From positions 310,001 through 374,000 of the forward strand of contig JAQYUZ010000002.1 of assembly GCA_033819885.1 (NCBI GenBank): a stretch of DNA of 64,000 nucleotides, in the 5' to 3' direction. Below, piece by piece: positions 4,433-64,000 of this stretch (its first letter is position 1; each line of letters begins with the position of its first letter). This DNA is from Microbotryomycetes sp. JL201. Lineage: Eukaryota; Basidiomycota; Microbotryomycetes. The notes beneath the pieces are model-generated. The model was not told where the DNA came from. It was given only the letters and a program-made list of their open reading frames with translations, and searched no databases. The translations under genes were made by a program, and so were the position numbers.

Positions 4433-7400
4433 ATGCTCGCGGCGAGGCATGGGTCGGCCGTCGCTCGCCTCTCGTTCGTCGCCGTTGTCGTCGTGTGCTC
4501 CTTCCTTCTCACGGCCAGGTACAAGCTATCACTGCCAGACGATCATCCCTACGGCGGCCCGTCCCAACTTGGGCACCAGGCGGTCAGCCCGAGCCGCCTC
4601 ACGACGCCAGAGCTCGCTCGCTAACCTCGCGCCACTTCTGCTACCTCGACAGTGGGCTTTGACGTTCAAGGCAGGTTCAGCTACTTCTGCTTCATCGAGT
4701 GAGCTCGATGCAGACACGAAAGCGGCCGCAAATTCATCAGCCGGCCTCGACGAATACCTCGACGATTGGGACTCGCAAGATGATCTCTGGGGAATGCCAT
4801 CAGGCGACATGTGGAGCCAACTCAGCACAGAAACGACACCTCTGACCGAGATCACCGTCAAGAGCTGCGTGCTGCCCCCGGGAATGGGCTTTGACACATG
4901 TGCGCCAACAAGCTCCAAAAAGGAGGATGCCGTCAGAGGAGCATGGAAGCGTGTAGAGCGCGATTTGAACAAGCAGATCGGCTTGTACTACCTCTATGTA
5001 TTCTACCGTCAGTCAATTCTGCTACTACGGCTGTGGCCATCTGCTGACGCAAAATTCAAACAGGTCGACTGCTGCCTGGGAGTACCGCCGATGTCATAAC
5101 TAATGTAACGGTCTTGACACATTCTCCGTCCGAGGACGATTTATCAAAGGAGTACGTGTCCTCGTCTTGAAAATGACCGAGAACGCTGACAAGCACCGTT
5201 TGCAGCGGACGCTGGGTCGAGGTCTCGGAGTCGTTACGAACAGGCGTTTGGCCAACGATGCCACCGGCTTACTTGCATTACAAGCTGACGCCACAAGCGG
5301 ATATAATTGCTGCACGTCGAATGACATCGAACGCAGATGCCGGACGGCTTGAGCCGATCACGGAACTCGATGTCGTGTATGGCAGCGATGATGTCAAACC
5401 CCTGCCGGGGTATGTGAAAGCTGCACAGTATATAACTGGCGGCGGAGACGATCCCAAAACGGCGACGACTACAGGAAAAGGAACGCGTCCGGGCTCGGCT
5501 CTTGCCTTCCGCAAGAAACTCGCCGGTTAGAGCACTCTTGTTGATACTTTCAGCATTTCACTGATGCGGTGCCCACGCAGTGAACCCTCATATTCCCAAT
5601 CTTCGCTTTGACACGGCCGGAAACTTTACTATTTTGCAGGTCGCTGACCTACACTTCTCGGTTGGTCCCGGGGCATGCCGAGGCGAGTAGTGTTGACGTC
5701 AAAGTAGATGCGAGAGCTGACAGGCCCTTTGCAGACGTCCCTGGAAGCAAGATGAACGAATGCCAACAACTGGGCGCCGATCGCTATTCACTGAAATGGC
5801 TGGAGGAAGCCCTGGACAAAGTGAAGCCCAGCCTTGTCGTCCTCACAGGAGACCAGTGAGCCGCGTTTTGCGCAATAAATCCGAGTCTGCTGGAAAACAT
5901 CTGACGCGACGCCATCAGAATCAATGGCCAGTCCACTTCCTGGTCGTCTCAGTCCGCCATCATGAAATGGGCGCCCGCGATCTACGAGCGTGGCATCCCG
6001 TGGACGACAGTATTTGGCAATCACGACCAGGAAAAGACAGACTTGGGAGGCAAACAACAAGTCGAACTGATGCAGCACTTGCCATTGTACATTGGCGAAG
6101 ACGGCCCTTCAAATGTCGATGGACACGGGAACTACATGCGTTCGCTTAGGGCCAATGACTCGGATACTGTCTTGACGACGCTGTATTTTCTCGATTCTCA
6201 CGTGAGTGCTGGCAGCCATTTTAGGCAGAGTCGCCGCCTCTAATGTGACTTTGTCCAGGCGAGCGCTCAAGGAGTCCTAAACTTTGGCAAGGGTTACGAC
6301 CATCTCAAAGCCAACCAGTGTGTAGAATGTTTCGCTCGACAAAGAGCCTGCATCTGACATGGTATGTCGTGCCTCTTAGAATCAATTGGTTCAGGGGACG
6401 GTCGTCGCAAGTCAAGCCATTCCCTCGACCATACTCGCCCAAGAACCATGGCCGACCAGAATATGACAATGTAGACGAGCTTGGGTCAAATCCGAATTTG
6501 TCGGAACCGGACGAAGAGGCGGACAGAACCAAGAAGATACGACGGAGGAGAAGGGGAACCACGAGCTGGAAGAGGCAAGACGATGACGAGCAAAGTGCCG
6601 GCTCGACAGACGGTCGGGAAGCATTCGAGAAGCTCAAAGCCGAGCTGGGTGCGGCGGACGAGGACAAGACGGACGACGTAGAGGATGGCAAGTACGGCAT
6701 TGGCAACACAATGCAGCCAAACGACGGATCTCAGGTCGAAAACGAGGACGATGCCAAGGCTGATTTCCAGACCGATGACGAGGCTCCAGACATCAAGGCA
6801 GACGACAGTGAAGCAAGCGTCGAGCAAGGGGACGGGGACGAAGTAACTGTCGATACCAAAGAGTTCAACCCACTGCTGGAAGAAGAGACCAGCGACCGGA
6901 CGCCAACAAAGCTGCCAGTTGGTCCGACAAGGGCTAAACCGCTTGTAGCCAAGCCCAACGCCCTCATGTTCTTCCACATTCCGCTGCAAGAATCTTATAA
7001 GTCACCTATCGACATTGGTAGGGATGGCAACCGCCTTCTCATTGGTGAGCTGCCCCAACTTCAATCCGATGCTCGCTACGTGCGTTGCTGACTTGATTTA
7101 CCGAAGGCAACCGCTACGAAGGCGCTGGTTCGCCGAAGAAGAACAGCGGCTTTTTCAAGCAAGGTGTTGTTGCCCAGAAGGAGCAAGTCAGCTTGGAAGA
7201 GAACGGTCCAGCTGACGGCTGGTGGGACGGCGAGAGCGGGCCAGTCACATTTGGCAGACCTGAAGTCAAGGTCATTTCCAACGGCGTAAGCGTTTTCCCA
7301 CCTTGTGGCTGATCCAAGCTTTGATGTTGACTTTGTTTCCGCTATGCAGCATTGCCACATCTCTGAAGATTGTCGGCGGGTCGATGGCACTTGGCTTTGC

Positions 7401-7632
7401 TTCGGAGGCGGCGGATCGGTACGTCGTGCCATAGCTGGTCTCGGATCTCGGTCACTGACATGTTTGATCACAGTATTCTGGCTACGGCAAGCCGGGTGGA
7501 GACTTTAAGCGAAGGTTTAGGGTCTACTCTTTAGCTGACTACGGAGAAACGATCGAGACATATCACCTCCATGACGACATGAGCATCGTTGATAGGGCTG
7601 TCTTGGTGGGTGAACACGCATTGGGAGATTAG
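4433..7632 (+). CDS. DCR2: DCR2-like metallophosphoesterase (type II membrane protein)
   Basis: Calcineurin-like phosphoesterase of the fungal Dcr2 group; yeast Dcr2 promotes Sic1 destruction and antagonises the unfolded-protein response by dephosphorylating Ire1. The ATG at 4433 is followed by a hydrophobic anchor (about residues 12-27, LSFVAVVVVCSFLL). Metal-site motifs come in order: VADLHFSVGPGACRD, then LTGDQINGQ, then FGNHDQ. A long acidic insert, rich in Asp and Glu, lies at 6440-6900, and HIPLQE and the C-terminal Dcr2 motifs follow. Eleven introns were traced. One, 5683-5734, has a GC donor and joins ACR to DVPGSK. Without it the frame ends at TAG (5688-5690) just after ACRGE, so it is required. 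The stop TAG is at 7630-7632. Identity as Dcr2 family is strong; the substrate is inferred from yeast. Confidence 0.87.
5683..5734 (+). other. GC-AG intron in DCR2
   Basis: The donor is GAG|GCGAGT, the branch-like CTGAC lies about 20 nt before the end, and the acceptor is TTTGCAG. The intron is 52 nt. It splits the D of the metal-site sequence ACRD. The upstream frame hits a stop inside the intron, and the downstream exon uses another frame, so splicing is needed to keep the enzyme intact. No GT donor gives the same join. Confidence 0.85.
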
Positions 7633-7826
7633 GCATACGCATTCTAGACTTGTTATGAGGTTTCACATTTGACAATGCTGTAGATCTGTCACTGTATTCG
7701 AGGACATGTCTAGACCCGTGAATACGGTCCGACTCTACGTTGCAAGCAATTTTCGAATGTGAACAAAGGAGCAGGTGCAAGAAAATCGAAATGAATGCTG
7801 GATACCATGCAATTAGAGACATGAAG

Positions 7827-9364
7827 TTATTCGGCCGCCGTGACTTCAAGCCAGTCGAGACACCGCCTGCCACAACCGCGGTGCAAGATCGGGATTGATC
7901 GAGTGCCGGATGCACTGCCGCCGACGAGGTAAGACTCGGATACCCATTCTATCCGCTCGACGGCTGGACGATAAAATACGCGCTCCTGACCGCCGTGCGC
8001 TGGCGATCGACAAACGTTGCTCAGGGGATCGAACGGCAGTCCCGGAGAAGTCGTAGCGCCGGCGTCCGAGCCTGACGACGCCTGTCGTTGCCTCCGTGAT
8101 CCGTACCATGACGGTGTGGTGACCATGTTCTCGAACGGTGCTTCCAAATGCGTTGGCAGGCTTGCGAGCGCGTCTCGGCCTCGGGCAGCGTCAAATAAGC
8201 CAGACAAGTGCAACGACAAGAAGGAGCGTACGGCAATCTCGTGCAATGACGGGATGGCAAAGTAGACCGTGAGTTGGCCTAGCAATCTGCCAGAAGCCGT
8301 CTCTTGAAACTTGGCCGGCGGTTGTCGGAGTGGATTCGGGTGCAGCGTCAGCCGAGACAGATTCCGCAGATTGAGGATCTCTGCCGGAAGCACCTCGATC
8401 TTGTTACCGGCGAGGCTGAGTTCGACGAGACCAGTCATTCGTCCGAATCCCGCAGGCACGCTCGAGAGCTGGTTCTGCCGCAAAAACAGCATGCGCAAAT
8501 TGCTGAGGGTGAAGAGCGCGGGCGAGATATTGTCGGCGGTGATGGAGTTGTTGTTGAGGTTGATCTGCAAGGGAACAGCCGTCTTTACTGCCTCTGACGT
8601 GAATGCGAGCGATCCAGACGAAGTTCTGCCGAAGTGGCGTTTCCGGGAGGCAGGCTCGTAGCCCTGTCCGAATGCGAGCGGACCAGACTGTGTTCGCCCA
8701 AACGATGCAGGAAGGGACTGATTGAACATGTTCTTGCTGAAAGTTGGCAACTTGCGCATAGTGCCTAGGTCGCACACACAGTCGGGAATGTCGGTGACGC
8801 CTTGGCCGCTACTTATACAGTTAGGCCTGATTAAACATGTTCACGCAACGAGACTCACCTCATGTCGATAATCTCAAGTGCTGAAGCCACCGTTTCGTCA
8901 ACCACCGTGTGCCAATCTAGTCTCACTGTCGATTGACCAGGTCGCGCGCGTTCAAATTCGAGCTGCCAAGTGTCCGCGGGCGGCGCGAACGCATCCGCCA
9001 GCGTTAGGCCTATGGTCGGGCCGGCGAGACCGTCGATCCATGCATCTTCCTCGTCATCCCCGGCTACCTCGCTTGATGTGGTCGAGTTGAAAGCTCGTTC
9101 AGCGAATGCCGGCATCGAAGAGTCGTTCAACTTTGTCGACGCGGGATCGATGCTGCCTTTGTATTTGCGCCCTTTCTCCTCGTCAGGGTGCGACAGCTGC
9201 TTGCCATGATATCCGAATGAAAGCACTGGCTGCGACAACGAGTGCCTTGGGCGCCTGTTCTCCAGGCACCAGTCGACAGACTCGAACGCCTTTGAGAGCG
9301 CCGAGAACGGGGCGGCAGCCTGTTCTGCTGTAGTTGGGCTGGTGGCGTGGATTGTTTGAGCCAT
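7827..9364 (-). CDS. Leucine-rich repeat protein
   Basis: Two exons. Exon 1 (9364 to about 8855) encodes an acidic, poorly conserved N-terminus. A 43-nt-class intron near 8814-8856 joins IIDMS to SGQGVTDIPDC. Exon 2 has four or so typical LRRs: INLNNNSITADNISPAL, LRMLFLRQNQLSSVPAGF, LVELSLAGNKIEVLPAEI and LSRLTLHPNPL. Then comes an unrelated C-terminal region that ends in WLEVTAAE. LRRs form a protein-binding surface; the spacing resembles the SDS22/Ras-suppressor class. In fungi similar proteins with a C-terminal tail are uncharacterised. I cannot assign a function. Start is the ATG at 9364. Confidence 0.75.
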
Positions 9365-11899: not shown

Positions 11900-12169
11900 T
11901 GTAGCAAGGCACCAGACGGGACGCGCGCCGATGCGTCGTGGTGCCGAGCAACAAAAAGCCAGCCCACGCGGCTCGATCAAACCCCGCGTTAAGCGACCGG
12001 AATCGGAATGCAAGCAAGTAAACATTCTGCATTTCAAATCGCATGGTCACATGAAGGAGAAATGTTTCGGAACAGCAGCATAAAAGACTTTGAGAGAGGC
12101 AGATCAAGCAGGAGTAAGCCCCTATATCCTTGAAGCCGCGGCTCGATTTCGCATCACGGAGATTGTCGT

Positions 12170-18319
<6,150 letters not shown>

Positions 18320-22598: not shown

Positions 22599-24607
22599 CT
22601 ATCGCCTCAACATTGACTTGATCTTGATAACATACTGATCGACAATCTCTTGCTTGGTTTTGAATACGACCAGGCCCATGAGCGCGATAGAGTAGCCAAT
22701 AACTTGAGTGAGCGTGACCTGAACACACGCAGTCTACTCAGCTTTCGATCTCGGACGTGAAACGGCCAAGACTCACCGTCGAGCCCATGAGGACGACTGA
22801 TCCGACGACGAGGAGAATGTCTTTGAGCACACCCTGCGATACTTTGAGCGTCAGGACTGAATTTCCGGAATTGACCGACAGTTTGCGACTTGCCGACAAG
22901 GTGAGGACGAGCGAGCTTGCGCAACCGATCAAAAAGACGACGGCAACGTTCAGAGCAAACGCAGTTGATGCGTTGACGACCATGAACGGAGCCCCAACCT
23001 TGTCCCAGACCTCGACGAACGGTGCCCAGCCTTCGAAAATTGGGATCAGCATCGCGTTGAGGCACGCGCAAACCTGCAAACAGCCAATGTCAGTCGGATC
23101 GAGGCGCGGCTCCACCAGATTTTGACCCACTGGTGCAAAATGGTACAGTGCAACCAAAGGTCCCATCTTCAAGCCAGTCAAAAGCTTTTGGATCGACACG
23201 AGGCGTGCAGCCTCGAACGCGATGCCAAGTGACTGGTAGATGAATCCGCTCAAAACAAAATTGATCTCGCCATATGAAGCTAGTGCGACTGTACGAGAAG
23301 GTGTCATCGTCGTAATCGAGCACGGAAACCTTTCGCGCTTGACACACCTCCACATCTGCAAGCGTGCATGAGCGCGTCAGCGGGTGCAAGCTCGTCATGA
23401 GCGCCTACAAGCTTACGAAATTGCAATAACGATGATGAATGTTCGAGGATTGAGCTTTTCCAAGCCAAACAACACGGACATGCCAAGAACGGCAACGGAA
23501 GTGAAAGCTTTGAGCCTGTGAGAGCATACTCAAGTCAGCTCAGTGCCTGCAGAGGTCGGTCTCGTATTTACATTTGAATGAACGACACAGATAGCGTGAT
23601 GTATGCGAGATTGGAGAAGACGAGCGAAGCAGAGAACAATGCGCCGATCGGCACAATGTTCTTAAAGTACCTGCGTAGACACGGGTAGATCCGTAAGTGA
23701 GAGCACATCGTACACTGGAGTCTCACTGACCTTTCCCAACTCATTTGCGCATCCTTGAGGCCGTCAAGCAAATGAGTTGTTCTGGCCAATATCCGCACGC
23801 CAATCGTCGCATACACCAAGTGGAACGTGGTCAAAAAGATAGGGAACTTGAATGACAGCTTGTCCAAAATGTAGGCGTTCTGCAAAATAACGGAGGACGA
23901 CAGGGCGATCCAGATCATGATGACATAGCCTGTTTCGACACGCAGAGAAAAGGAGCAAAGTCAGCGAGCGACTCTTCGAGCTGTCCGGAAGATAGCATGT
24001 CTATATGACTGCTCAGATCCTCTGCAGCTTGCAAGAGTAGTCTCGAGCTGCTGATGGCACGGCACAATTTGGCGACGAGCAAGGCCCAGGTAGCTATAGT
24101 GAGCTGGCAGGAAGTTTCACTGTGATATCTGTCCTGATGCTTGTCATAGTACTGAGCCCGAGAGTGCAAGGCGTTGGCTGCGTCGGTCCTCGGCGAGCCA
24201 TCTCCTCGAGAGGCGAAAAGCGTTGGAGGATGAGGCGACGGCGGTGCTCGCGCTCGCCAAATTTGAATCCCAGGCTGAAGAGCGCCACACTTACCCGGCC
24301 AAATCTTTTTGGGCTGCGCGGCAGACGTGGCGTTCGGTGGAGCTTGGTCCGCCTTTCCGCCGAGCAGCGGCTTGTCCGACATGGGATCGTTCTTGTCGCC
24401 AAACATGGGCAGCTTCGAGTCTCCGTTTGATCCAAAGTACCTCTGCTGCTGGTTGTCCGAGGCTGGTACTGCGCCGTGAAGCTTGCTGTCACCGTCTGCC
24501 GAGCCGCCGATCGTGATCCGAGTCGAGGACGAGTGCGAGCGAGTGTGTTGCGAGACGGCATCAGGCTCCTGCTGGCCACTCTGACGACGACGATGTTGTG
24601 AAGCCAT
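22599..24607 (-). CDS. Triose-phosphate-transporter-family (DMT) carrier
   Basis: Multi-pass membrane carrier of the drug/metabolite superfamily, TPT branch, which moves nucleotide sugars or organic phosphates across Golgi or ER membranes. A hydrophilic N-terminus (about 100 residues, Ser/Gln/Gly-rich) is followed by about nine or ten membrane segments, for example IMIWIALSSSVILQNAYIL, FPIFLTTFHLVYATIGVRI, LKAFTSVAVLGMSVLF and VIGYSIALMGLVVFKTK. LTLSGVLKDILLV is the diagnostic TPT block; it is formed by splicing a GC-AG intron (22834-22893). An 8-nt microexon (23348-23355) supplies part of AISCGVALASYGE. The intron after IWPG is unusually long (23930-24294, 365 nt). Start ATG at 24607, stop TAG at 22599. 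The substrate is unknown. Confidence 0.85.
22834..22893 (-). other. GC-AG intron in the TPT-family carrier
   Basis: Minus strand: donor TCG|GCAAGT, CTGAC branch site 21 nt before the end, acceptor TATCGCAG. At 60 nt with no stop it can be read through, adding 20 residues (about ASRKLSVNSG onward) in the middle of LTLSGVLKD. The conserved family sequence shows it must be removed. A GT donor inside (TCG|GTCAAT) is possible but leaves eight extra residues. Confidence 0.8.
23348..23355 (-). other. 8-nt microexon
   Basis: ATGTGGAG on the minus strand, bounded by acceptor CTTGCAG| and donor |GTGTGTC. The flanking introns are 61 nt (23356-23416) and 59 nt (23289-23347). Joining ATTTC + ATGTGGAG + TCGCACTAG reads I-S-C-G-V-A-L-A, exactly the block ISxGVxxASxGE seen in this family. 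Direct joining of the outer exons breaks the frame. Confidence 0.8.
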
Positions 24608-27807: not shown

Positions 27808-28857
27808 TCAGCTGACCATACATCCACTGGTCCGATGCGATTTGTGATCCTCGACGACAGGCCTGCTCCCCCGCGTTTCGCCCTTTCGCTGAGCACGGAT
27901 CGCCACTCGCGCAGCTTCCTCGAACGCTTCACGCACACCGCGATCGTACTTTGCCGAGCATTCTGCAGCCCAAGTGCCCGATGTGTCAGTTCTCACGATC
28001 GCAAACCTAACAGAATCGGTCGTCTACACACCGAGATATCGTGAGGCGCGAATCCGTTTTGCCACTTCCAAACCCTGAGTCGAGGCAAGCCCGTCAGCAC
28101 AGGATCAACAGACTCAATTTCAATGTAGCTTGCATCTTGGTATTGTACAGGCTTCTGATTGTACTGCGCCAGCTTGCTTTTCGTCGCCGGATCCTCCCTA
28201 AGATCGCATTTGCATGCAACGAGACAGATTTTGACGCCCGGCACATGGTTTACGATCTCGTCCACCCACTGTTTTGACGCAAAATTGTCGTCATCAATTA
28301 CCTCAGACTGCCTCGCATCGGCGGTCACCACTCACCTTGCTCTCGACGTTGTCAAGCGAATCCGGTATGTCGACCTGCCCTGCGTATGTCAGCATGCTTC
28401 TGTTCAAGTCGTCTATAGCTAGGCGAGCCCATTCTGACTATCGTACGCCAATGCGCGCTCTCTGACGCACCGAGAAGCACAGCAGTACGATGTGGGTGTC
28501 AGCATAGGACAAGCTCCTCAGCTTGTCAAAGTCTTCCTGGCCGGCAGTGTCCCACAGAGATAGCTCTATGGGGGTGCCGTCGACGACAATATCCTTGACG
28601 TGGTTTTCAAAAACAGTCGGTTCATCTGGCGCGAAGCGACGAGAGGGCGTGAGCACGGCTCGATAGTCCGATCACCGTCTTGTTGGCTTACAGACGTAAG
28701 GAAACTCGCCGTTGACAAAGACATTTAGGAGAGAAGTCTTGCCGGCGGCTCCGTCCCCTACGACAACCAGTTTACGCTGCAGGCGGCTCGAATGCGTCAT
28801 CGTCGGCGGCGTGTCATCGTGACCCGTTCCGGACCCCCCTAGCCCACATAGAGGCAT
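27808..28857 (-). CDS. RHO3: Rho-type small GTPase, Rho3-like
   Basis: Molecular switch for polarised exocytosis and actin. G-motifs: GDGAAGKTS (P-loop), [10 protein letters not shown] (switch I), [18 protein letters not shown] (switch II), KCDLRED (in place of TKxD), and ECSAKYDRG. The C-terminus is SGCMVS, a CaaX box ending in Ser, which favours farnesylation. The fold [15 protein letters not shown] and [17 protein letters not shown] fit fungal Rho3 better than Rho1, Rho4 or Cdc42. Two in-frame starts exist, ATG 28857 (MPLCGLGG) and ATG 28800 ([10 protein letters not shown]); either is possible. Six introns; the one at 28075-28133 has a GC donor and restores [20 protein letters not shown]. 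Confidence 0.88.
28075..28133 (-). other. GC-AG intron in RHO3
   Basis: Minus strand: donor GAT|GCAAGC, CTGAC branch site, acceptor CGACTCAG. The 59-nt intron joins QYQD to [13 protein letters not shown]. The upstream and downstream frames differ, so an intron is certain. The only upstream GT (CCT|GTACAA) would delete the conserved VQY segment. Confidence 0.88.
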
Positions 28858-28979: not shown

Positions 28980-29515
28980 ATGCCTTACATTGACAAGCAC
29001 GGCAACATCAAGTCAGAAGCACCATGGTATCACAAGACTGTAACAGCTGTTCAATCCTGTGTGATTGCCGTCGTGCTGTTTGTCACGACATTGTTTCAGG
29101 CAAGCCAGCGAGACGTCGGAACCGCGTCGGTCGCTTGCACACAACGATCTCACCTGTCTTTGCGACATTATTGCAGCCCACCAAGGCTCGCACGCTACCT
29201 CCCTCAGATTCACTTCGCCAGCTTCGACAACGGCAGCAGCGGCATGATGACATGCCCACTGGCGCCAGTACCTCTACTAGTGGATCGACAGCTGGTCGTA
29301 ATACAGGACAACCGGCCAGTAGAAGGCAGCAAGCTCAATTTTCAGACATGGGTGGCCCAGGTCAGTGGCGTTCAAATCAGGCTGAGTCTGCAGTGAAGGA
29401 GCTGAACATAGGCCGCTTCGGCTCGCTCGGCTGCTACGGTACCGACAGTTGTTCCTGGCCTCAGGTCTGGTTGCGCATCGTGTGGCTGACTTGCTCTCTG
29501 CTTGGCGACTGCTGA
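28980..29515 (+). CDS. Small SelK-like membrane protein
   Basis: A short protein with the selenoprotein K/S layout: a short N-terminus with PYIDKHGNIKSEAPWYHKTV, one membrane segment (about residues 24-39, VQSCVIAVVLFVTTLF), then a hydrophilic Arg/Gln/Gly-rich tail. SelK binds ER-associated degradation factors such as p97; fungal homologues use no selenocysteine. The gene is divergent from RHO3 (122 bp apart). A GC-AG intron (29100-29176) joins TTLFQ to PTKARTLPPSD; the tail frame is different from that of exon 1. Whether the short stretch at 29363-29395 is also an intron is unclear, so the C-terminus is unsure. Homology is weak and partly inferred from layout. Confidence 0.55.
29100..29176 (+). 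other. GC-AG intron in the SelK-like gene
   Basis: Donor CAG|GCAAGC, acceptor TTATTGCAG, 77 nt. It switches to the frame that continues as PTKARTLPP. Read-through is stop-free for a while, so this case depends on the downstream frame being the real one. Confidence 0.65.
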
Positions 29516-34797: not shown

Positions 34798-36434
34798 CTA
34801 CGGTTGCGCGAGCTTGTGCCAAACAGTTGCTGCCAACCGGTGGAAAGCTTGGGTCGCACTGTCCTCTGTGGACTCCGGAGGGATCGCCCTCTCAGGGGTG
34901 GGCCGGTTCGAGTCTTCTTCTAGTCCGCCGTGTACGGTGCTAGCTCGGTCACGCTTAGTCTCATCGAGCCCACGACCGGCAATGTCACGGCGACTGTCGC
35001 CACCGTCGCTGTAGTCGCTCTCGGTCGAGGTTGATGTAACGACGATGGGCACGCCAGAATCTCCGTTTGCGGAAACGTCAGGCTCGATCGGAATCTCTGC
35101 GAGCACTTGGAGACCCAGCTTTGCGCATACGTCGTTGAAAGTGGCCGGTTTGCCAAAAATGTAATGTTTTGTCGGCGACTCAGGGCACTTGAAGTACGAC
35201 ATGTTGAGGACAGAGCCAAAGATCTGGGCCCAAAACCATTGCCGATGATAGCCGCGGATGTCAGCACGAGACGACGTAGATCGCTCTTTGAAAAGCCTCG
35301 GTTATACAAATTCTTACCGGAATACCCAATTTGCGAAACATGGCGACTCCTTTACGAGTGTCGATGATGGCTACATTTTGAGGAGTTGAAACAATCACGG
35401 AACCTGAGCGTTGAGAGCAGGGTGCAGTGGATGAGCTGGGATTCGCACGGTCGTATTCGTTTGCCACCAAGCCTAGACGACCCACCGTCAACCTCGACAA
35501 GCTGACCCAAGCTCAGCGATATGTCGCCAGTTCCTGGCGGTGTGTCAATGACGAGCACGTCAAGGTTGTGGCCGCCGGACCCGGCACGCCAATCCACATC
35601 AAAGAGCAGTTGCTGAACCGCCTTCATGACCATCATGCCTCGCCAGACAACTGGTGTATCTGAGTTGTCTTCTCCTTGCGTCGAGTCTTTACTGTTTGAC
35701 AAAAGAAAGCCCATCGACATACAGGGAACACCATGACTCCTGAGCGGTGTCAAGCGGTTGTCTGTCTTGCGAACATCAGCTCTGCTTCGGGAAAGCTCAC
35801 AAGTCAAACATCGTACCTTTCGTCAGTTCTGGCTCGCCCATGCCTTCTAAACCCATCAATTTGGGCACAGACGGGCCGAAAATGTCGAGGTCGAGAAGGC
35901 CCACTCGAAGTCGGCTCGAATGGGCAGCGGTCAATCTCGAGAGTGCGAGCGCTAAGTTGACTGAATATACGGGGAAGAGGTGAAGATTAGCGTTCATAAT
36001 GTCTCGAGGAAGGTATCCCCGCGCCACCGTATCGAGAACCAGCTGACCCGAGACGCTGCTCTTGCCTACGCCACCTTTGCCACTGCTGACGACTACAATA
36101 TGCTTGACACCCGGTATCTTGCGCTTTCGTGGTAGACCGCGCTGCATGCGAGGCATAGATGGCGGTGCGTCGTTGCGAGGCAAGCCCTACACCATGTGTC
36201 CCTACGTCAGCGCTTGAACAATGGTATTTTGTTGTTGACTGAGCCATCGAATTGTCTGCCACTCACAAGCGGGTTGTCATGGCTGGCTGAGCGGCTGCTC
36301 GACGCGATGAAGCGCGCCTGTTGGTTTCGCGTAACTTTGCATGTGCAAGGGAGCTCATTGGCCTGCACAGTTCGTCGTAGCTGCCAGAACAGAGTCCGGT
36401 TCTGCGACGATACGCGAATGGTCCTCGGCTGCAT
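34798..36434 (-). CDS. IND1: NUBPL/IND1, Fe-S assembly factor for complex I
   Basis: Mitochondrial P-loop NTPase (Mrp/NBP35 family) that delivers Fe-S clusters to complex I. The ATG at 36434 starts a presequence rich in Arg and Ser ([12 protein letters not shown]), followed by SASHDNPL. Splicing joins it to [20 protein letters not shown], then the deviant Walker [12 protein letters not shown]. Other motifs are [45 protein letters not shown], and [18 protein letters not shown]; the last includes C but shows no second CxxC cysteine nearby (KCPESPTKH), so the bridging pair may differ. Between VPIVV and AFHRLA lies an extra stretch of about 60 residues, rich in charged and Ser/Thr residues. Six short introns. 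The gene starts 92 bp from the end of the PFF1 gene. Confidence 0.87.
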
Positions 36435-36526
36435 GTGCAAAGCGTTGAAATGCAAAAAGGTGTCTAGCAGAGGCGGCATTCTATGAACCAATAACGCAAC
36501 CAATGAGACAATAGGAGCGTGACATT

Positions 36527-39500
36527 TCATACGTATGCGACGCCGGCTGTTGTGGGGCGAGGTCAGCCACTATCCAGAGCGGAGGCCTATTTCGACTTAC
36601 CAATCGCCGACAACAGCATCGAGTCGACTTCTTGGGGCAAACGCTTCTCGAAACGATCAAAGAACTGCATACCAGGCTTGCTCTTGATGTCTGCATGCCT
36701 CATCGATGCCGGATACATGCCCGTGGCGTCCAGACCCGAAAAGTCGATCCTGATCCGACCAAGTCGTCGGTCTTTGGCGGAAACGTCATTACGTTGTCCC
36801 TTGTCACGCTGATTTTCCCGCATCGTCGCTTCAAACTGTTCAGGCGTGAGCTCCACAACGACTGACAGCTTGAAGACGTCCACTCCGAAGGCTGCCACGG
36901 ATTTGACGTGATGGCGTATGAAGCCTCGAGCCGGAGGTTTGGGCAGATCTACAAGACCACAGTCAAAGGAGAACTTTGAATCGGACACACGGTGCACTGA
37001 CCCCACGAAATGACGTCTGCGTCGAAAGCGACAACCGGCCACATGATGCCAGGGTGCTTCATCTCAATCTCGAGAGTTCTGGTCCGCTTGATCGAGTTGA
37101 GTACAGACTTGACAGCTTTGACCGTGAAGGAGCCTTGGAACGGAGACGTGTACGTCGCAGGAGCCGGTGGCAGCGGAACTTTGTAAGTCTGGAAGAATGA
37201 ATTTCAGCATGCCGTGTCATCTGGCCATAGACTCGAAGCTTGCCGTCAAAAATTGAGAGACGGGGAAGATGACGTCCCAATCGGTCGTATAGTCGTCTGC
37301 CCTCGCTGGTGTAGGGATCTCGTCGGCTAATGTCAAGCCCTTCGTCGCTGCCACGACCAGATCCTCGAACGGAGCACCATCGACAGACGCCACGTGCAAA
37401 TTGTAATGGGGTGGCGTAGTAGTTGTGTTCTCCATGTGCAAGACCAGGAGGCGTTTTGGATGCATCTTGTCGTAAGGTTGCCAGCTCGGTCTCGTAAACC
37501 ATCCGAGCGTGCCTAGTCAGTCGACCAAAGGGGCGTCAGACGCATTCGAGAATTTGATACAGCTTTCTCACCAGCCGTCCAGAATGTGAGGAACAAAGCG
37601 AGGCGCGAGGTGACCTTGGGACCAAACCGGTGGCTGAATGGGACAATCTTTGCACTCGAAACGTCAGCTCCGTCTCCAACAGCCGTCGCACACTCCTCCC
37701 AAAACGCTCACCATTGGCACACAAAGAAACCCGACTGCAGATGTCAGGGTCGCGATGATGAAATCGACGGGTGCATCGGCGCCAAGTCGGCCAGTCAGCG
37801 GCACAAACAAGTCGAGAAAGCCTACGAGACCTTCAACGCCAAGTAGCATTGGCACAATCTAATAGTCGGAATTGAAGTCAGTTTCGAGTCCGCCTGAGCT
37901 CTGTGCGGTCGCAGCTCACCATGCCGACAAGGTAGGATGCAAGGTGCACGGACCCTTTGCCAGGTCTCAGGATATAATCGTTGAAAATGATCGTTGTGAG
38001 AATGGACACAACGCCGAGGCCAAGCAAATACGTCGAGCCAATCCCTACACTGTGTCCGAGCACTGCAGTGCACGTAAAGGAGATCAAAAAGCCCAGTAGT
38101 TGCGCGTGCTCTAACATAGCTGACTCGGCGACCTCGACGGCGTACGATGCGCGTGGCGTACGGAGTCGCTTGGCAACTCGCCTTTGAACTAGTAAGACGG
38201 AGAGAATAGCGGGCGGCCCAAAGACGAGGATTGGGAAAGCTTCGTTGCGGAACCTGCGAGCTTCAAGTTAGCTATGCAAAGCGTCAGCACAGGCCGTGCT
38301 GGTATCGTACCAAGTCATGGTCTTTTTCATGATGATGGCTGTAACAAAAGCCGCGATATTGGCACCGAGAATGGCGGCAACCAGCGAAGTGCCAACATTC
38401 AATGTCATGGCGATGTACAAGCGTTTCTGAGACCAGTCGACCCTGTCTGCCACCACGACGGCTGCCAAAGCAGCCAAGATACCATAAGCGAAGGTCGCTT
38501 GGTCTCGTGTGAGGACGACAAAGAGCTTTCCGCCAAGTCCCGAAAAGAAGACGACGGACGATGTGGGCGACTTTGGCAGTTTCTCGGCGGTCAAGGAGTT
38601 ACCGAGCGCGGTGGCCGGTGACGTCAAATACTCTAGCAGCGCAATGACATTCTCGCCCATGTGTTGAGTGGCGCCAGGTTCAATAAATTCGGGCAGATCC
38701 AGACGCGTGTGGTACTGCCGCGATGGTCAGCGAACATTCCTCCGAGACCCGAGCAACGTACAAGATAAGAATTTTGCACGATCGCCATGTCTATTGACAC
38801 CGTCAGTCTATCGAAGACTTTTCCAACTCATTGAACACTCACCCAGGCCTGTTAGATTTCCATATTCTGCAAATTGTCGGAAATCGGTGCTGACGATATT
38901 GCTGTCAGCAGGAATGGAATCTGCAGGCCACACTACATACTCACTCTGACAAAATGAGCCCGGTTGAAAAGATTTCGGAAGCCAGCACCGTTGCATAAGG
39001 TCTAGGCGTTTTGGCGAGAGCTCGAATCATCTGCGGAGCGGTTTGTCAGACCAGGTGTCAATTATACTCTAACAAAGTCTCACCTCTTCAGACGTAGCCT
39101 GGAATACGATTTCTGGTCCGGCCACGCCACAAGCTTCGAGGTTGATTACAGCTCGAACAGAGTCCTTCAGCGGGTGTTGCGTGATGAACACTTGTTGCGA
39201 CGGCGTCAGTAGACTTGAATCCAAACGCGTGATGCGAATGACTGACTGTGGGAAGCGTCCTGTAAACTCTCTTCGGCCCCATTGAACACTCAGAAAGAGA
39301 GATCTGTCAATCCCAGGTCTGCTACGAATAGTTCACGAAGGTCAGCTTACAGAATATGACGCTGTTGGTCAAACGGCGGCGTGTCATGCCCATCACACGG
39401 AGAGTCTCGAGCATGACACCAACGCCAAGCAAATCATCTGCTGCACCAGGTGATGGCAAAGTGCTGTCGGTATGTGCGTTGACGAGCACTGCGTTGTGTT

Positions 39501-40156
39501 TGCTTGCTGCTGTGCCGTCCGAGAGGCGCACAATGACATTTCCAATGTTGATATACTTCTTCCAAACTTTCTTGTCCATAAAATCTGTCGCGATGGATGC
39601 AAGATAACCGTGTCAGACGCGGAGTGCTGGACTAGCTCGTTCGGACAGACCAAACAAATGCTCGCCCGATCCGACCTAGGTACACAAGGCTAGTCAGAGA
39701 AGAACTGATATGCTGGTGAACGAAAGCGCTCACCTGGTGCCACACTTCGATCTGGTGAAAGTCTCCCATCTTTGCGACAACCTCACGACGAATGCGCTCG
39801 ACTTGGTCGATAATGTACTTTTCTGTGATGACCATCTCTTCCGTACCAACGATTCTGTATCTCGGAGATCCATCCGAGTGTACTGCGAGGTCGTTGATGT
39901 ACTTGAGAGCTTGATGTTCGCTGAACACGGCTTGCGAGCCGTTGGCCGAGAACAGCTCGGTGCCCGGCTCTGGCAGAGAGTAATGCAGATGAGCAGACAG
40001 CCAACCGAGTGCCACAATGACGGGCAAGACGATCAACAAGCTCGGCCAGAACGACAGCGGTTGTCGAGCAGAGGACGACCGAGTCCGTGCGACCGCAGCA
40101 GCGGGCACAGTCGCCTGCTCCTTGTACACGACGCCATTTGAGCTCGTGGCGGCCAT
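36527..40156 (-). CDS. PFF1: PFF1-type vacuolar membrane M28 protease
   Basis: Zinc aminopeptidase-like membrane protein of the vacuole (yeast Pff1, animal ERMP1). Start at the ATG 40156; a hydrophilic leader precedes the anchor PSLLIVLPVIVALGWLSAHL. The catalytic part has VNAHTDSTLPSPGAADD and SVIFLFNGAEES, with the zinc ligands and general-base Glu. After it come about eight membrane segments, for example ATFAYGILAALAAVVVA, LLGFLISFTCTAVLGHS and IVPMLLGVEGLVGFLDLF, and a lumenal domain of about 270 residues, including SQFLTTYKVPLPPAP, VVAFDADVIS and GVDVFKLSVVVEL. At least 13 introns; one (37189-37243) has a GC donor. The protein ends AIAGVAYV. Stop at 36527-36529. Confidence 0.88.
37189..37243 (-). 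other. GC-AG intron in PFF1
   Basis: Minus strand: donor ACG|GCAAGC, CTGA branch, acceptor TTCTTCCAG. The 55-nt intron joins VSQFLT to TYKVPLPPAP. A downstream GT donor (GA|GTCTAT) gives phase 2 and puts the next exon in the wrong frame. Confidence 0.85.
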
Positions 40157-48007: not shown

Positions 48008-50010
48008 ATGCAGAACGGACTAGGACTCGAGTCTGGTCGAGCTTACGCGTCGCCGCGCTACTCGTTCTCGATCGACCCGTTCAACCCATCGAGCTCGCCG
48101 CGCCCTGGCCGCCGCACGCCCTCAAACTCGAGTCAACGGCGCCAGACGCGCAGACTCGTCAGCCTGTTTGTCATCTTGATCGTCATCCTCGTCCTCGACG
48201 GCGTGTACCTGCACAGCCTGATCTTTCCCGACGGCCGGCAAGGCAGCAAGAGCGCTCAGGCCTCCTTGCACGCCAGGACGGTCGACACTGTAGAGCGGCA
48301 GCTCGTCGAATTGCTCGTCAAACACAAGGACGCGACAGAAGTACAATCGCCCGTCGACCGCATTCAAGACTTTGCAGACAGGGTCAAAGTCTTGCTCGTG
48401 AGCTGACCTTCGCCCGACAGACCGGATTGGCGCTGACGGTACTCTCAATCGTCCGTCGAGGAACCACAGGAACTGGACAAGTTCAAGCAAGAGCTGCAGG
48501 ACAAGGGCCTCAACTCGACGTCTCACGACTTGTATGCACGGTCGGCGCAACACCACTTTGATCTGCTGTTCGCCAAGCTGTTTCCGTACGTGTCAAAGTC
48601 GCCAAAGAGGCCGCGGACATTCGATCAGCTGCGAGAGAGGTACACGATCCCTCGCGGTATCATTATTCCTTGCGGCAATGACCAATTCAGAGCAAGTCTT
48701 GCGGAAATTCTCTGGCAAATCTTGCCCAACTGACATATCACGTGAATAGTTTGCCGTACACCTGATCGCTACGCTCAAGAACGTCCACCAAACAAAGCTG
48801 CCTATCACTGTCGTGCACGCCGGCAACAATGACCTGAGCATCGAGAGACGGGCCGCGCTCAAGTCCATCTCGCCCGACGTCGAGACGTTCGACATTCTTC
48901 ACTTTTTCGACGAGGATCACGTCGGCTTGGACGGCGGTGGCTGGGCCATCAAAGTGTTTACCATCATCGCCTCGCAGTACCAAGAGACCATCATTTGTGA
49001 CGCCGACGTCATCTTTCTTCAGGACCCAGAGATTTTGTTTTCGAACCCCGGTTACAACGAGACAGGCACGCTCTTTTTCAGGGACAGAGAGATATTTCCC
49101 GGAGATGGCAACGTGCATCAGTGGTGGGGTCGCATCATGGAAGGCAGGCAACCCAGTTTGCAGATGCAGCAGTCAAGGTGGTTCACCGATCAAGCTTCGA
49201 GGGAAGAAATGGAAAGCGGCGTCGTAGTGTTTGACAAAAGGAGGAGAGACATTTCGCTGGGATTGATCTACACCGGTTATCTCAACATCAAGGCCGTGCG
49301 GGAGCCTGTCACGTATGCTCAGACTTATGGTGCGTCGATTTGCAAAAGTTTCCATCAAGTGCGTTAATCTGACTTTGGTCGATCAGGCGACAAAGAGAGC
49401 TTTTGGATGTCTTTCGAGCTTCTCGGGATCCGATGTGAGTGCTCTCGTCGGCTCCAGCTCGGTCCTTGTGAGCCGATAGTGACGTATGCCTGTCGCAGAC
49501 CACTTTCAGCCCGAGTACGCTGGCATTGTCGGCCAACTTACGCACCCCGACAAGGCTTCGCATTCAATCGACTCTCGGATATGCAGTGAACACATGTTTC
49601 ATCTCGATTACCGTTGCGTCCCGCTCCAGTTGATGCACTTTCTGAACGGGATATCACTGAAACTGGTTCTTTTGCAGGTGGCCGACCTCTTTGGTGGAAC
49701 GGATCACTGTTTCAGAACAAGCGCAGCAAACGTAAAGGGTGGTTCATTGCCACTCATTGGGCCGTAAGCTTCCGTGTCTTCAACTAATTGCATTCCTCAT
49801 TCGTATTCTGACTCTTGTTTGCTCGCATCGTGACAGCCTGGTACGGTTGACTGGGATTGTGAACCTGAACCTTGGTGCATGAAAGGTATTCGAGAACAAG
49901 ACGTAAGAAAACTCGCCGGCGATGAAGGATTCGACAGAGTATTGGCAGACATGATTGGAGCCGCCGTCGTCATCGAGAGCAGGTTTCCTCAACTGCTACC
50001 TCAAGATTGA
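48008..50010 (+). CDS. GT71 family alpha-mannosyltransferase (Mnn1-like)
   Basis: Golgi type II enzyme that adds alpha-1,3-linked mannose in protein glycans. The ATG at 48008 begins MQNGLGLESGRAYASPRYS; an anchor (LVSLFVILIVILVLDGVYLH) follows. The catalytic part begins PRGIIIPCGNDQFRFAVHLI, with a GC-AG intron at 48692-48749 after the R, then VVHAGNNDLSI. The metal-binding DXD lies in TIICDADVIFLQDP, followed by ESGVVVFDKRR and the end motif GRPLWWNGSLFQNKRSKR and GTVDWDCEPEPWCMKG. Seven introns. The protein ends FPQLLPQD; stop at 50008-50010. Family is clear; the glycan target is not. Confidence 0.87.
48692..48749 (+). other. GC-AG intron in the GT71 gene
   Basis: Donor AGA|GCAAGT, CTGAC branch, acceptor GTGAATAG. 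The 58-nt intron joins GNDQFR to FAVHLIATLKNV. The nearby GT (GCAA|GTCTTG) puts the next exon out of frame. Confidence 0.85.
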
Positions 50011-55121: not shown

Positions 55122-58100
55122 ATGGACAAATTGCCTCTGAATGGCCTTACAGTGGCCCTGTCCGGGGCCAGCATAATGGTCTCGTCCGCGTTCGAACATG
55201 TATTCGCGCGCAAGAAGATAGTCGCCGAAACGTCAGTCAACATGGCTTTGCACTGAATCTTAAGCCTGACGACCGTCATAACCCTATAGCGAGGCACGCA
55301 AAAGCTTCATATACAACGAGGCCTTTTCGGTCCTCAAGGCGTTTGCAAGTCCTCGACAGTGCCGAGCATGCTTGTGAGCTAATACAAGTTGCCTGTCCTG
55401 CGAATCCAGTTCGAGAAAGGTACACTTCACACCGTGGAGGAAGCGCAGAAATTTGGCAACACCTTTGTGCCTTCGCCTAGTTGGGTCCGGGTGATCAGGG
55501 TCGTCATTCCTCCTTCGACGCTGGCAGATGCTGCCAAAGTGCTTATAGACACGATTGGAGAAAAGGAAGTAAACGAAGTCATCGGCGGCAAAGAGTGGTG
55601 GCAACGTACGGCTCACCCGGAAGGCGGCATTGATGGCGAGTGGATCTCGATGAAGAAGGACTGGCCTGGACCGGAGGACGACGATCCGGCAGTTGAGGAG
55701 ATACACCACATGAAGCTTGATGCGCTCAGGGAGGCTTTGAATGAGAAGAAATCGCGCAGACAAGAAAGTGCAAAGGGCAAGGACCACGACTTGCCCGAGC
55801 CGCCACAAGAGGCATATGCTGAAGAGATGGACAGCATGCGTTGCATTTTATACATTCACGGTGGTGCACATTTCTTCGGGAGTATCAACACGCATCGTAA
55901 GACCATTGCTTGATTGCATTACCGCACTTTTAGGCTAACTTGATCCTGCGACACAGGCTATCAGATCTGGCGATATGCGCGCAAGATTGGTGGCAGGGCG
56001 TTCGGTGAGCTGTCCACTGCCCGATCTTGCGCGCTGAGACTGAGTGCTCTCGTTGACCGCAGCTGTCAAATACCGTCTCTCGCCGTGAGTGTGGATGAAC
56101 GAGTCTTTTGCATCGGAACTGAAAGTGTCTTGTTCTGTTAGGCAATATCCTTTCCCGTGCTCGCTTCAAGACTCGTTGGCTGCGTATTTATATCTCATTC
56201 GACCGCCACCCGGAGCCAAACACAAGTCCGTTGACCCGTCCAAGCTCGTTGTCGCCGGAGACAGTGCCGGCGGTGGATTGTCCCTGTCCCTCCTTTTGCT
56301 GCTTCGGGATTCCGGCCTGCCCATGCCGGCCGGACTCGTCTTGATCAGTCCTTGGGTCGATCTGACGCATAGTTTCCCTTCCATTCTCAAAAACACTGCC
56401 ACGGACATCATTCCTCCGTATGGGTTCCTGTTCAAACCGAGCACGTTGTGGCCTCCGCCCCCGACAGAATTTCAGGAAAAGGCAAAACAGTCGACGACGA
56501 TAGACGGCCTCAAAAAAGCTGCGAAAGAAGTAGAGGAGAAAGGCGTCAGGCCGAGGAAAAGTCTTTTGTCGCTGAAGAGGAACAATAGGAAAGGTCACGA
56601 GCTCGCTCACGCCGTTGAACAGCTGCCAGACGACAATCCGCAGGCGGCAGAGGGCCAGCAAAGAGAGCAAGGACAGCCGCAGAACAAGGCTGACCCGGCG
56701 AAACAAATCAAGATCAAAATTGACGGCGAAGAAGTCGAGCTGGTTGACCAGATCCAGCTATATGCCACGAACGATCAGGCAAGTGTTCCCCGCCTTCATC
56801 CTCGTTCGAGCCGCATTCCGATGACCTTATGCAGCTCGTCCATCCATTCGTATCGCCATTGTGGGCGCCCAGTCTCGGTGGACTCCCGCCAACATACATT
56901 CTTGCGGGCGAGAAGGAGGTGCTGCACGACGAGATCGTCTACGTAAGCGCTCGCACAGGTAGCGATCATCTCATATCCGCTGCCGGGCTGACGTCCTTGA
57001 CTGACAGCTGGCCCATCGTATGGCTCATCCTGATCGGTATCCCCTGCGGAAAGAGCTCCTTGAAGCGAACCCCCAACGCACGCAAGTTCAAGCAAATCTG
57101 CCACCGACGCTCACTCACCTCCAGGTGTATGATGGTGTCTGCCACGATTTGCCTTTGCTGTCGTTTACGACTCCAGCAAAGTATTGCTTCCGTGCTGTCG
57201 CATCCTTCATCAAGTTTGTCACGACCGACCCAGCCGAGGGAGGCCCACCCTCCCCTGTATCGCCGACGATGATGCGGCTGCCGGTGGAGAAAGATCCGAA
57301 TCACGAGGACGCTCGGATTCACGCTCGAGACATGGCGATGAAGGACGGCACAGCACCTGCGGGTGATCCGTCGCCTAAGCCAGGTTCGTCATCGTTGCTG
57401 GAAGTGCCAAAGTCCGGATGTGGATCAACCGTCTCGTTCGAGACGGGCCCTATCATGACCACCTCCAACGACTCCAGAGTAAATGGACCGTCATCCGAAT
57501 CGTTCCCTACGTCGCGGCCAATGGCATCTCGTTCGAGCACTGTCAACTCTTCCACTTCGAAAAAAATGACAAACTTGGAGAAAACGATTTATTCGTCGAC
57601 CCAACCTTTCCACAGACCGGATTACGTCGACAACATGATTCGAGAGAGAATCAGCTTGACAGGTGTTGTCAGAGCCCTCGAGCCTGAAAGCGAATTGGAA
57701 TGCCTCAACCTCAACCCTGAAGACATTGGTGTCGTCAAAGAAGCACCTGTCAAGAGGTACCTCGCCGGCAGTGAGTTGCTTGCAGCGCCCCGCTCAGGCT
57801 GAAATCAAGCTGACCACGTTCGTCCTCGTGTTTCACAGAGACGATCTGGGACAAAAAATTCAAGTCTGTTGCCGAAAAAGTTCAGCGCGAGCGGGAAGGT
57901 GAGTTTTACACACGCAAAGTCACGAGGTTACATCAGTTTAACCTCTCTCTACTGTTTTCCTTTCATTTTCTCGAAACTCTTTTTGCCGAACAGACAATTT
58001 GCGCAAGAGTATGAGAGAAGAGGCGTCTCGCATAACTGAACGGATCAAAAAAGCTCGCAAACATAACGAGCATCCTCACGTGCTTGACAACCATCCGTCC

Positions 58101-58397: not shown

Positions 58398-58677
58398 AAG
58401 GAGACGGTTTGGTGTATTCAGGGTCTGTTGGGACCGGTGGCGATGTTGCACGTTTCGAGCGCGTGAGAGATAGTTCAACAGTTTGATGTACAGTAGTAGG
58501 CACTTGCTCGGCTCATGTACGAATCAATGAATGACAACAGCACAAACTGAACGAAAACCAGCCACCGACGCGCTCGCCAATGACTTATTGCGCTAGAGCT
58601 TTGCGCTGCATTACAAATCGATGCAGCACAATGATTGCAAGCTCAAATCTGCCCAACGTCATGTCAATAGGTGTGTG

Positions 58678-59905: not shown

Positions 59906-60158
59906 GGCACAAGCACGGCGGGGCGGGTACTGTCGGACGACAAGGAGGACAACGGGTGTTGTAGAGCTGATTCGCCCGACAGGCCCCGGTGGTGGCTTCC
60001 GGGATTCCGGCACAAGCGCCTGAAAGCGAGCGCCGAACGACGTCGACGTCATTCAAGAAACAGGAGGTTCAGATGTGTAAAGGAGGACGTGATCATTGCA
60101 GTGCAGTCCTCTTCTCAACCTTGAGGATGTGTGACTCCCCCCTTTCACTCTGCGCCGT

Positions 60159-62683: not shown

Positions 62684-62818
62684 GTTGGCGTGTGGGGCCG
62701 AGTGCGTGCACGAGGCCAGTGTGTCAAGGGTTGTCGGCCTGTTTGCGCTTGGCCGCGCGCGCTTTGCTTTTCGCGCTCAGGCCCCTCCGCTCGACCCACT
62801 TTTGCCTCTTGACCCGAG

Positions 62819-64000
62819 ATGGATCCGTTCGAGGCGAGTGGGATCGATGTAAATGCGACAAGACCTTGACGCTGACGCGCGCGCGCGCACGCGTGCAGGT
62901 GCGGCTGCAGTTTGTGACGCTCTTGTCGCGCTTGAGCTCGTCGCTGCAGAGCATCCACAAGTGCACATCGTTCGCGCTCAAGCACTCTAGCAGATGTGCA
63001 GACGATATCTGGGACTGCCTGATGGAAGAGTGCGCGCGCGCGTCGCTCAATGCGCGCATCAACTTGCTGTACCTCGTCGACCAACTGCTCGACCTGCAGC
63101 CAACGACAGCGCCCGCCGCCCAGCCACAGTCACTTCCTTACACGGCATTTGCAGCGCGAGACCTGGGCACGCTCGTCAACAACGTCGTCCCAGCATCTCA
63201 GCTCGGCTCGCTCAACCTCATGAGCGCCACTCAGGCAAGTCGCAAACGCGCACGCGTGCGTCTGTACACAAACACACGCTTGCTAACAGCTACTCCTTCC
63301 TCTGTGCGACACAACTGCCAGGTCTTGCAATCTTGGAAGACGAGGCGCGTGTTTGATGCAGCTGTGCTCGACCCAATCTTGAACCAGCTCAGCGAACGCA
63401 GAGCCTCGTATGTTCCTCCTCTGCGGCAACCCTTGATGCCCAAGCAGCTGACTATGGAGGCGATGATGATCTCTCGACTTTAGCATGCGCAAATCGTCGT
63501 CGACAGACGCAAAGCATCCGGAACCTGACAAACAACTCGATCAGCTTTCGAGAAACGATATTCTGAGGCGGATAGAAGACGATAGAGAGAGGGTCAGACG
63601 CACCTCCAGATTATTCGCACGACTGATCGCGCTGACTCGCCCGCGTTCCGTAGCACAAACGACTCCGAGAACGAATCTGGGTCTTGCCCGTTCCGACAAC
63701 AATCTTTACAATCTCTGCTACTCCTGCTGCGCCAGCAGCAAACGCAACCACATCTCTCCCGTCAGCCAAACCATCCCCAACCTCGCCCGCCTCTCCATCC
63801 GACCTGCCTCAAACTCCAATACCACCTAAATCCCTATCAAAGACCACCCGAACGAAACAACTCGCAACATCAGAAACAGCGTCAGCACCTTCAACAAACG
63901 TGCAATCGGCTTCACCAACATCACCGTCATCGCCGTCGAGTCGGCTCGGACCTTTTTTGCCGATCGAGATCGAGTTTAATCAACTGTGGGACGCGGCAAA
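62819..64000 (+). CDS. CTK3: CTK3, gamma subunit of the RNA polymerase II CTD kinase (partial)
   Basis: Third subunit of the CTDK-I kinase that phosphorylates Ser2 of the polymerase CTD. It has an N-terminal CTD-interaction-like (CID) domain. The first exon is five codons, MDPFE, spliced by a GC-AG intron to VRLQFVTLLSRLSSSLQS and ALKHSSRCADDIWDCLMEEC; MDPFEVR is the usual fungal start. Next come NARINLLYLVDQLLDL and LGSLNLMSATQ, and a second GC-AG intron joins VLQSWKTRRVFDAAVLDP. A third intron leads to LSRNDILRRIEDDRER, then HKRLRERIWVLP. A Ser/Pro/Thr-rich stretch follows, and FLPIEIEFNQLWDAA at the right edge. The rest is outside the window. Confidence 0.9.
62834..62898 (+). other. GC-AG intron 1 in CTK3
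   Basis: Donor GAG|GCGAGT, CTGAC branch, acceptor GCGTGCAG, 65 nt. It makes MDPFEVRLQFVTLL, the family consensus start. A GT donor 15 nt later (GAT|GTAAAT) is in phase and would add ASGID; it is the rival explanation. Confidence 0.7.
63235..63321 (+). other. GC-AG intron 2 in CTK3
   Basis: Donor CAG|GCAAGT, branch CTAAC, acceptor AACTGCCAG. It is 87 nt, a multiple of three and free of stops, so it can be read through. Removal gives NLMSATQVLQSWKTRRVFD; the family has NLMSAxQxLESWRxKR with no insert. Confidence 0.85.

Follow-up and report, generated by a model that had tools for sequence, protein, structure and literature searches.

Frequent GC-AG introns with compensated donor flanks in Microbotryomycetes sp. 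JL201

The fungi Hamamotoa singularis and Rhodotorula minuta belong to the Pucciniomycotina, and the former also to the Microbotryomycetes. In the bglA genes of these two basidiomycetous yeasts, a single GC-AG intron is found in each case, as one of 18 introns in H. singularis and one of 21 in R. minuta (PMC9142197). Across fungi, GC-AG introns comprise 1.009% of the annotated introns (PMC7072748, Table 1), and in the hand-corrected annotation of Ganoderma lingzhi they reach 1.85% (PMC11590231). Much greater shares are known from algae, namely 39.6% in Aureococcus, 22.2% in Micromonas pusilla and 7.7% in Chlorella, the correlation with G+C content being otherwise weak (PMC3033335). Here we describe the GC-AG introns in a stretch of 64,000 nucleotides (nt) of the genome of Microbotryomycetes sp. 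JL201 (hereinafter the window; contig JAQYUZ010000002.1, in our numbering C12:310001-374000) and in a sample of nine contigs that includes it.

The GC-AG introns of JL201 share the GC donor, the AG acceptor and a U2-type branch site with those described in other fungi, but in our sample they are approximately three to six times more frequent and are concentrated on near-perfect donors (PMC7072748, PMC11590231). The bglA genes of H. singularis and R. minuta contain GC-AG introns as JL201 does, but these are single genes (PMC9142197). Like the GC-AG-rich algae, JL201 represents a lineage with many GC donors, although the algal genomes contain about 66-70% G+C compared to 54.7% in the JL201 sample (PMC3033335). 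Similarly to JL201, larvacean tunicates depart from the GT-AG rule with core parts of the spliceosome preserved, whereas in JL201 the non-GT donors are a minority class and the change is limited to position +2 (PMC13326754). A literature search on GC-AG introns in fungi, basidiomycetes and Pucciniomycotina, which covered mostly titles and abstracts, yielded no report of a fungus with a share near 5%. The preliminary description of the window, made from its sequence alone, considered the frequent GC donors to be a candidate for an undescribed feature; for fungi this holds within the scope of that search, whereas high GC-AG shares as such are already known in algae (PMC3033335). In JL201, a fungus that is both compact and rich in introns, GC donors seem to be frequent although neither an extreme G+C content nor a visible change in the small nuclear RNAs (snRNAs) accompanies them, and JL201 could therefore serve as a natural system for studying the cost of the donor base at +2 and the upper limit on donor pairing.

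Share of GC donors in the JL201 sample

The JL201 genome consists of 17,152,241 bases in 92 contigs. Introns were called ab initio with a generalized hidden Markov gene finder (C code) that was written for this analysis. Its training was iterative, admitted no donors other than GT and used the window together with positions 200001-400000 of contig C1; this training set included 545 introns with a median length of 62 nt, the donor G/GTRAGT (the slash marks the exon-intron border) and the branch site CTGAC. In the introns called in these two stretches, the third position of the branch site is G in about 80% of the best matches. After training, the donor was opened to all 16 dinucleotides. The final sample of 334 kb from nine contigs, with 131 predicted genes, includes the window, the C1 stretch, six further stretches (C34, C45, C5, C67, C56 and C89) and a stretch of contig C25 that was chosen for Prp8 and not at random; the seven stretches beyond the window and C1 are 10 kb each.

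According to the preliminary description, this lineage tolerates or favours GC donors, a genome-wide share above about 4% being proposed as a test; the sample supports this view, its share being above that value. Among the 718 introns called in the sample, 41 (5.7%, 95% confidence interval 4.1-7.7; counted from gene calls) start with GC, and such introns are common well beyond the window (9/146 in the window itself), with 23/418 in C1 and 9/154 in the seven 10-kb stretches together (C34, 2/21; C45, 2/22; C5, 2/20; C67, 1/20; C56, 2/28; C89, 0/29; C25, 0/14). Five other non-GT dinucleotides (GA, TG, CT, AT and TC) share six calls, which are included in the total of 718 and left aside in the comparisons of GC with GT donors. 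At least one called GC intron is found in 33 of the 131 predicted genes. With about one intron in eighteen apparently having a GC donor, standard gene prediction therefore errs on some genes, and gene models that forbid or penalize GC donors would be wrong in many genes of this group.

GC is the only non-GT donor class that is clearly above the background of false calls. Under a flat 1% prior for each dinucleotide, GC received 18 calls in the window and C1, and every other dinucleotide at most three; with re-estimated frequencies, GC accounted for 32 of 564 introns in the same two stretches, and five other dinucleotides for one call each. Over the entire 334 kb, a flat 1% prior for the 15 non-GT dinucleotides resulted in 22 calls for GC and at most five for any other. 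False calls were estimated on 304 kb by assigning the same 6% prior to GC and to a single rival dinucleotide, with 14 rivals taken in turn: GC drew 39-41 calls compared to 3-8 (mean 5.6) for the rivals, calls of the RAGY type numbered 31-33 for GC versus 0-3 for the rivals, and subtraction of the mean rival count leaves a GC share of about 5.3%. A result that runs against this trend came from disallowing GC: the rival dinucleotides then drew 7-19 calls each, while the separate run for GC gave 41. Searching without a model for GCRAGY combined with a branch site and an acceptor had no power, with 121 of 1249 sites for GC (9.7%) and 6-11% for ten control dinucleotides. As read from the genome sequence, GC donors in JL201 are real as gene structures, are present well beyond the window and represent a quantitative outlier among fungi.

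One gene model in C1 (C1:270809-272018, positions 70809-72018 of the stretch), for a predicted secreted or membrane protein of 250 residues, appears to have GC donors in three of its seven introns.

GC-AG introns of the window and agreement of their junctions with homologs

The DCR2-like protein encoded in the window has 99% identity with a database protein from Microbotryomycetes sp. JL201 (the next matches are from NB124-2, 78%, and JL221, 73%), and for the alpha/beta-hydrolase the identity with a JL201 protein reaches 100%; an Rfam scan of the window at gathering thresholds gave no match. The preliminary description listed eleven GC-AG introns in the window, all with GCRAGY donors, and estimated their share at about 7%. 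All eleven donors are seen in the sequence, and all eleven introns begin with GC and end with AG; for the four introns on the minus strand, the coordinate given in that description is the acceptor end. Once non-GT donors were allowed, the gene finder recovered nine of the eleven, and with the two missed ones, at 29100 and 63235, the count is 11 of about 148 introns, close to that estimate. At 63235, a GT donor 21 nt downstream was picked instead of GC; at 29100, no gene was predicted, and a short SelK/SelG-like gene (approximately 28980-29500, plus strand) was missed.

Introns of the U12 type have the donor consensus [AG]TATCCTT. An origin of the GC introns from the minor spliceosome (U12-type) was considered and rejected: the eleven window donors are GCRAGY, and nothing similar to that consensus is seen among the 41 called GC donors.

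Five junctions of the window (5683, 55345, 56779, 62834 and 63235) were aligned to 19 to 23 database proteins each; the genes for homology checks were picked for conservation and not at random. GC splicing agrees with the proteins of relatives or with solved structures at all 12 junctions that are readable at the residue level, seven in the window and five in C1. At 5683, the GC donor preserves the motif GxGxCR, which is kept in 22 of 23 aligned proteins and is absent from the JL201 database protein (P0001). The junction at 55345 is gapless in 20 of 21 aligned proteins, including that of JL201, and the remaining one differs at the N-terminus, whereas at 56779 the JL201 database protein has a two-residue insert that is missing from 20 of 21. 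At 62834, the insert ASGID is absent in 18 of 19 aligned proteins; it would result from the use of GTAAAT, 15 nt further downstream, as the donor. This GT donor, which lacks the G at +5 that is present in 97% of the called GT donors, is a possible alternative in this strain. Orthologs support the GC junction at 63235: the insert that would result from the downstream GT alternative is absent in 17 of 19 CTK3 proteins, as the GC donor predicts, the exceptions being P0121, a protein from the same contig that is listed without a source name and is taken here as the CTK3 protein of this strain, and P0130, a partial protein from Phenoliferia. Altogether, the database proteins of the strain are off at four of the five checked junctions (5683, 56779, 62834 and 63235), where they imply GT donors, with two to seven residues lost or added.

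Comparison with solved structures gave the same picture. The spliced CDC48 is gapless relative to p97 across the junction of the intron at 14356 (residue 186), as is the spliced protein relative to fungal Rho1 across that of the intron at 28075 (residue 146). In C1, the GC junctions are gapless in Imp3, adenosine kinase, Ski2, CCT-eta and kinesin-3; a second GC junction of Ski2 lies beyond the alignment shown, and one of the three GC junctions of kinesin-3 falls inside the range that was aligned out of 520 residues compared. At 29100, the SelK_SelG domain (PF10961, cut-off 23.3) scores 25.0 bits with GC splicing, compared to 18.0 for the first exon alone and 17.5 with the intron retained, which moderately supports the predicted junction. 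The gain in the Pfam TPT score at 22834, from 63.4 bits with the intron retained in frame to 67.1 bits after splicing, weakly suggests the GC junction. The Mannosyl_trans3 match (192-411) spans the junction at residue 204 (48692); the junction at residue 718 (37189) lies outside the Pfam matches, its one basis being the reading frame.

The ER peptidase of the M28 family and a NUBPL-type P-loop NTPase are fused into one gene model (window 34798-40156) that probably represents two neighboring genes.

GC-AG introns of the window, with donor sequences (the slash marks the exon-intron border) and the basis of each junction
Gene	Position	Strand	Donor	Ab initio call	Basis and remarks
DCR2-like phosphatase gene	5683..5734	+	GAG/GCGAGT	called	residue-level homology
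CDC48	14356..14412	-	CTG/GCAAGT	called	structure alignment
TPT-family transporter gene	22834..22893	-	TCG/GCAAGT	called	weak Pfam support
Rho-family GTPase gene	28075..28133	-	GAT/GCAAGC	called	structure alignment
SelK-like gene	29100..29176	+	CAG/GCAAGC	not called	moderate domain support; 77 nt, ends CAG
M28 peptidase gene	37189..37243	-	ACG/GCAAGC	called	55 nt, frame-forcing
Mannosyl_trans3 gene	48692..48749	+	AGA/GCAAGT	called	58 nt, frame-forcing
alpha/beta-hydrolase gene (first)	55345..55409	+	TTT/GCAAGT	called	homology
alpha/beta-hydrolase gene (second)	56779..56834	+	CAG/GCAAGT	called	homology
CTK3 (first)	62834..62898	+	GAG/GCGAGT	called	homology
CTK3 (second)	63235..63321	+	CAG/GCAAGT	not called	homology

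Flanks of the GC donors and the spliceosomal components

The flanks of the GC donors compensate for the mismatch with U1, in agreement with the background given in the preliminary description, that GC-AG introns need a strong donor to offset it: the 39 GC donors of the comparison set match U1 at 4.49 of six positions on average, compared to 3.38 of six for the 559 GT donors that were called under an equally harsh prior. In particular, GC donors are enriched in A at +4 (35/39 versus 368/559), A at -2 (26/39 versus 226/559), G at -1 (27/39 versus 280/559) and the RAGY motif as a whole (32/39 versus 210/559, p=7e-8), and their introns more often contain the CTGAC branch site (29/39 versus 269/559). 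They also prefer A at +3 (20/39 versus 150/559) despite the model weight for G, and this preference is therefore not a bias of the model. When introns are sorted by the number of U1 matches outside +1/+2, the GC share is 4/366 at zero to three matches, 19/260 at four, 11/75 at five and 7/11 at six; with a donor model that keeps only position +5, the background-corrected shares are at most about 1% at zero to three matches, 6.3% at four, 8.1% at five and 3/6 at six. Across bins of predicted duplex energy, the share is 1.2% in the weakest bin and 18.5% in the strongest one, without a stepwise increase (0/4 and 2/30 in two middle bins). Recomputed with T in place of C, the GC donors have a mean U1 duplex energy of -7.8 kcal/mol, compared to -5.1 for GT donors.

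A single U1 locus was identified (C7:112439-112616); its score is 31.1 bits, the cut-off for the family being higher, at 69.5. Its 5' end, AUACUUACCU, is canonical (the longer stretch reads AUACUUACCUU), and a DNA search with the U1 gene, from which a very divergent copy could escape, found only the gene itself at E<=1. A U1 base change that would pair with GC is rejected on these grounds. The single U6 locus, on C63 (48.5 bits, over the cut-off), keeps the ACAGAGA box intact, so that an altered box is rejected as well, and the suggestion of the preliminary description that a change in U1 or U6 snRNA may be the cause is not supported at the level of bases. A change in U1C or Prp8 had also been suggested. 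For U1C, the only gene, on C19, encodes a zinc finger that matches PF06220, has the usual motif intact and is presumably canonical against the human sequence. Prp8 is full-length and well conserved overall, residues 14-2346 being aligned to human 13-2335 in an overall end-to-end comparison. Matches to LUC7, SNRNP27 and Methyltransf_10 (which we take to be the METTL16 family) are present in the genome; Methyltransf_10 also matches bacterial genomes. As far as they were compared, U1, U6, U1C and Prp8 look ordinary, and no visible snRNA base change therefore explains the use of GC.

The U6 gene itself is interrupted within its catalytic core by a 67-nt GT-AG intron (GTAAGA...TAG; L022:1548-1614, contig C63), which immediately follows ACAGAGAA; a literature search on U6 introns found no relevant paper. 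Similar U6 introns are present in fission yeast and basidiomycetous yeasts.

Probable tolerance of the +2 mismatch and alternative explanations

The explanation that we favor, with moderate confidence, is ordinary U2-type splicing in which strong pairing of the flanks renders the +2 mismatch nearly harmless. The GC introns would be ordinary U2-type introns with C as the second base. Pairing of U1 with their donors would be normal apart from a single C-A mismatch at +2, which could be tolerated because the donor (AG/GCRAGT) otherwise shows almost complete complementarity to U1 and most of the branch sites are CTGAC. At donors with strong flanks, the change from T to C at +2 would therefore have a small selective cost in this lineage, and because of this small cost GC donors could build up to 5-6% of the introns with the snRNA bases unchanged. 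We infer actual splicing of these introns, its low fitness cost and such a history of the lineage from the gene structures and donor flanks described above.

Several observations weigh against this explanation. Two of the sampled stretches, C89 and C25, contain no GC donors; GC and GT donors do not differ significantly in the frequency of G at +5 (p 0.25) or of T at +6 (p 0.13); and with a fully flank-blind donor model just 16 GC calls were obtained and the complementarity trend was gone, these calls being read as mostly noise. Weak GC donors are under-counted because the gene finder needs strong signals for GC calls, and both the GC introns and their share derive from gene structures predicted from sequence. 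Finally, fully complementary GT donors are depleted about two-fold, which simple tolerance does not predict.

This depletion speaks for an alternative that we regard as possible but unlikely, namely that overly tight pairing with U1 is disfavored, through slow release of U1, and that C at +2 detunes perfect sites, so that GC would be favored and not merely tolerated. Equally doubtful is the broader form of this idea, in which donor strength is kept within a narrow range, perfect U1 pairing is selected against, and GC donors are a tuned class rather than leftovers of tolerance. Under such a ceiling, most AG/GYAAGT donors would be GC, and in the sample GC accounts for seven of the eleven perfect sites. 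Among the 671 GT donors, GTAAGT occurs 33 times versus 66.7 expected under independent positions (none of 5000 shuffles as low) and 61.4 expected after correction for genomic 4-mers, and AG/GTAAGT occurs four times versus 13.9 expected (p 0.001); the depletion survives in flank-blind calls with +5G (n=508), with 26 versus 50.1 and 2 versus 9.5, respectively. The predicted U1 duplex energies are also more narrowly spread than those of shuffled donors (standard deviation 2.65 versus 2.92, none of 400 shuffles as narrow). Furthermore, positions +3, +4 and +6 of the GT donors are negatively coupled, with an odds ratio for +3A and +6T (NAGT/NAGC words, A versus G or C) of 0.37, whereas it is 1.13 across the sampled genome and 0.95 within the bodies of introns; in fully flank-blind calls, the +3A:+6T coupling is not significant. 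However, the perfect sites are few, and when GT and GC donors are pooled, the perfect class AG/NNAAGT is not clearly depleted (11 versus 15.6 expected, p=0.12; for AAGT, 47 versus 69.4). Moreover, every test is fed by the same gene-finder calls, such that selection bias may remain. In other species, too, the two sides of the exon-intron border are known to be negatively coupled: a 30-species study reports such coupling along with intronic couplings that are biased to positive, in contrast to the negative ones among +3, +4 and +6 in JL201, and gives CAG/GTAAGT as the human donor optimum (PMC10599564).

As a separate observation, in the GT donors of the 334-kb sample +3A tends to occur together with +6C, and +3C with +6T.

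Less probable still is a relaxed check of the +2 base that would result from a change in a spliceosomal protein or in the modification of an snRNA (Prp8, LUC7, or N6-methyladenosine, m6A, in U6 or U1). In larvaceans, non-canonical splicing accompanies duplication of U2AF as well as changed U1 and U6 m6A (PMC13326754), and the LUC7, Methyltransf_10 and SNRNP27 matches would be compatible with this idea. However, GC alone is raised in JL201, with no other dinucleotide following it, the genes that were looked for are present, and Prp8 is well conserved overall.

Base composition alone, that is, conversion of GT to GC in a GC-rich genome, is a very improbable explanation that we reject as the sole cause: high GC-AG shares do coincide with high G+C content in the algae (PMC3033335), but the JL201 sample is far less G+C-rich, its intron bodies contain 52.8% G+C with T and C nearly equal (9235 and 10050, respectively), and the concentration of GC donors on strong sites is left unexplained. 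That the GC introns are gene-model or sequencing errors, as the GT donors implied by the strain's own database proteins at four of five sites could suggest, has a negligible probability given that 12 of 12 readable junctions agree with GC splicing.

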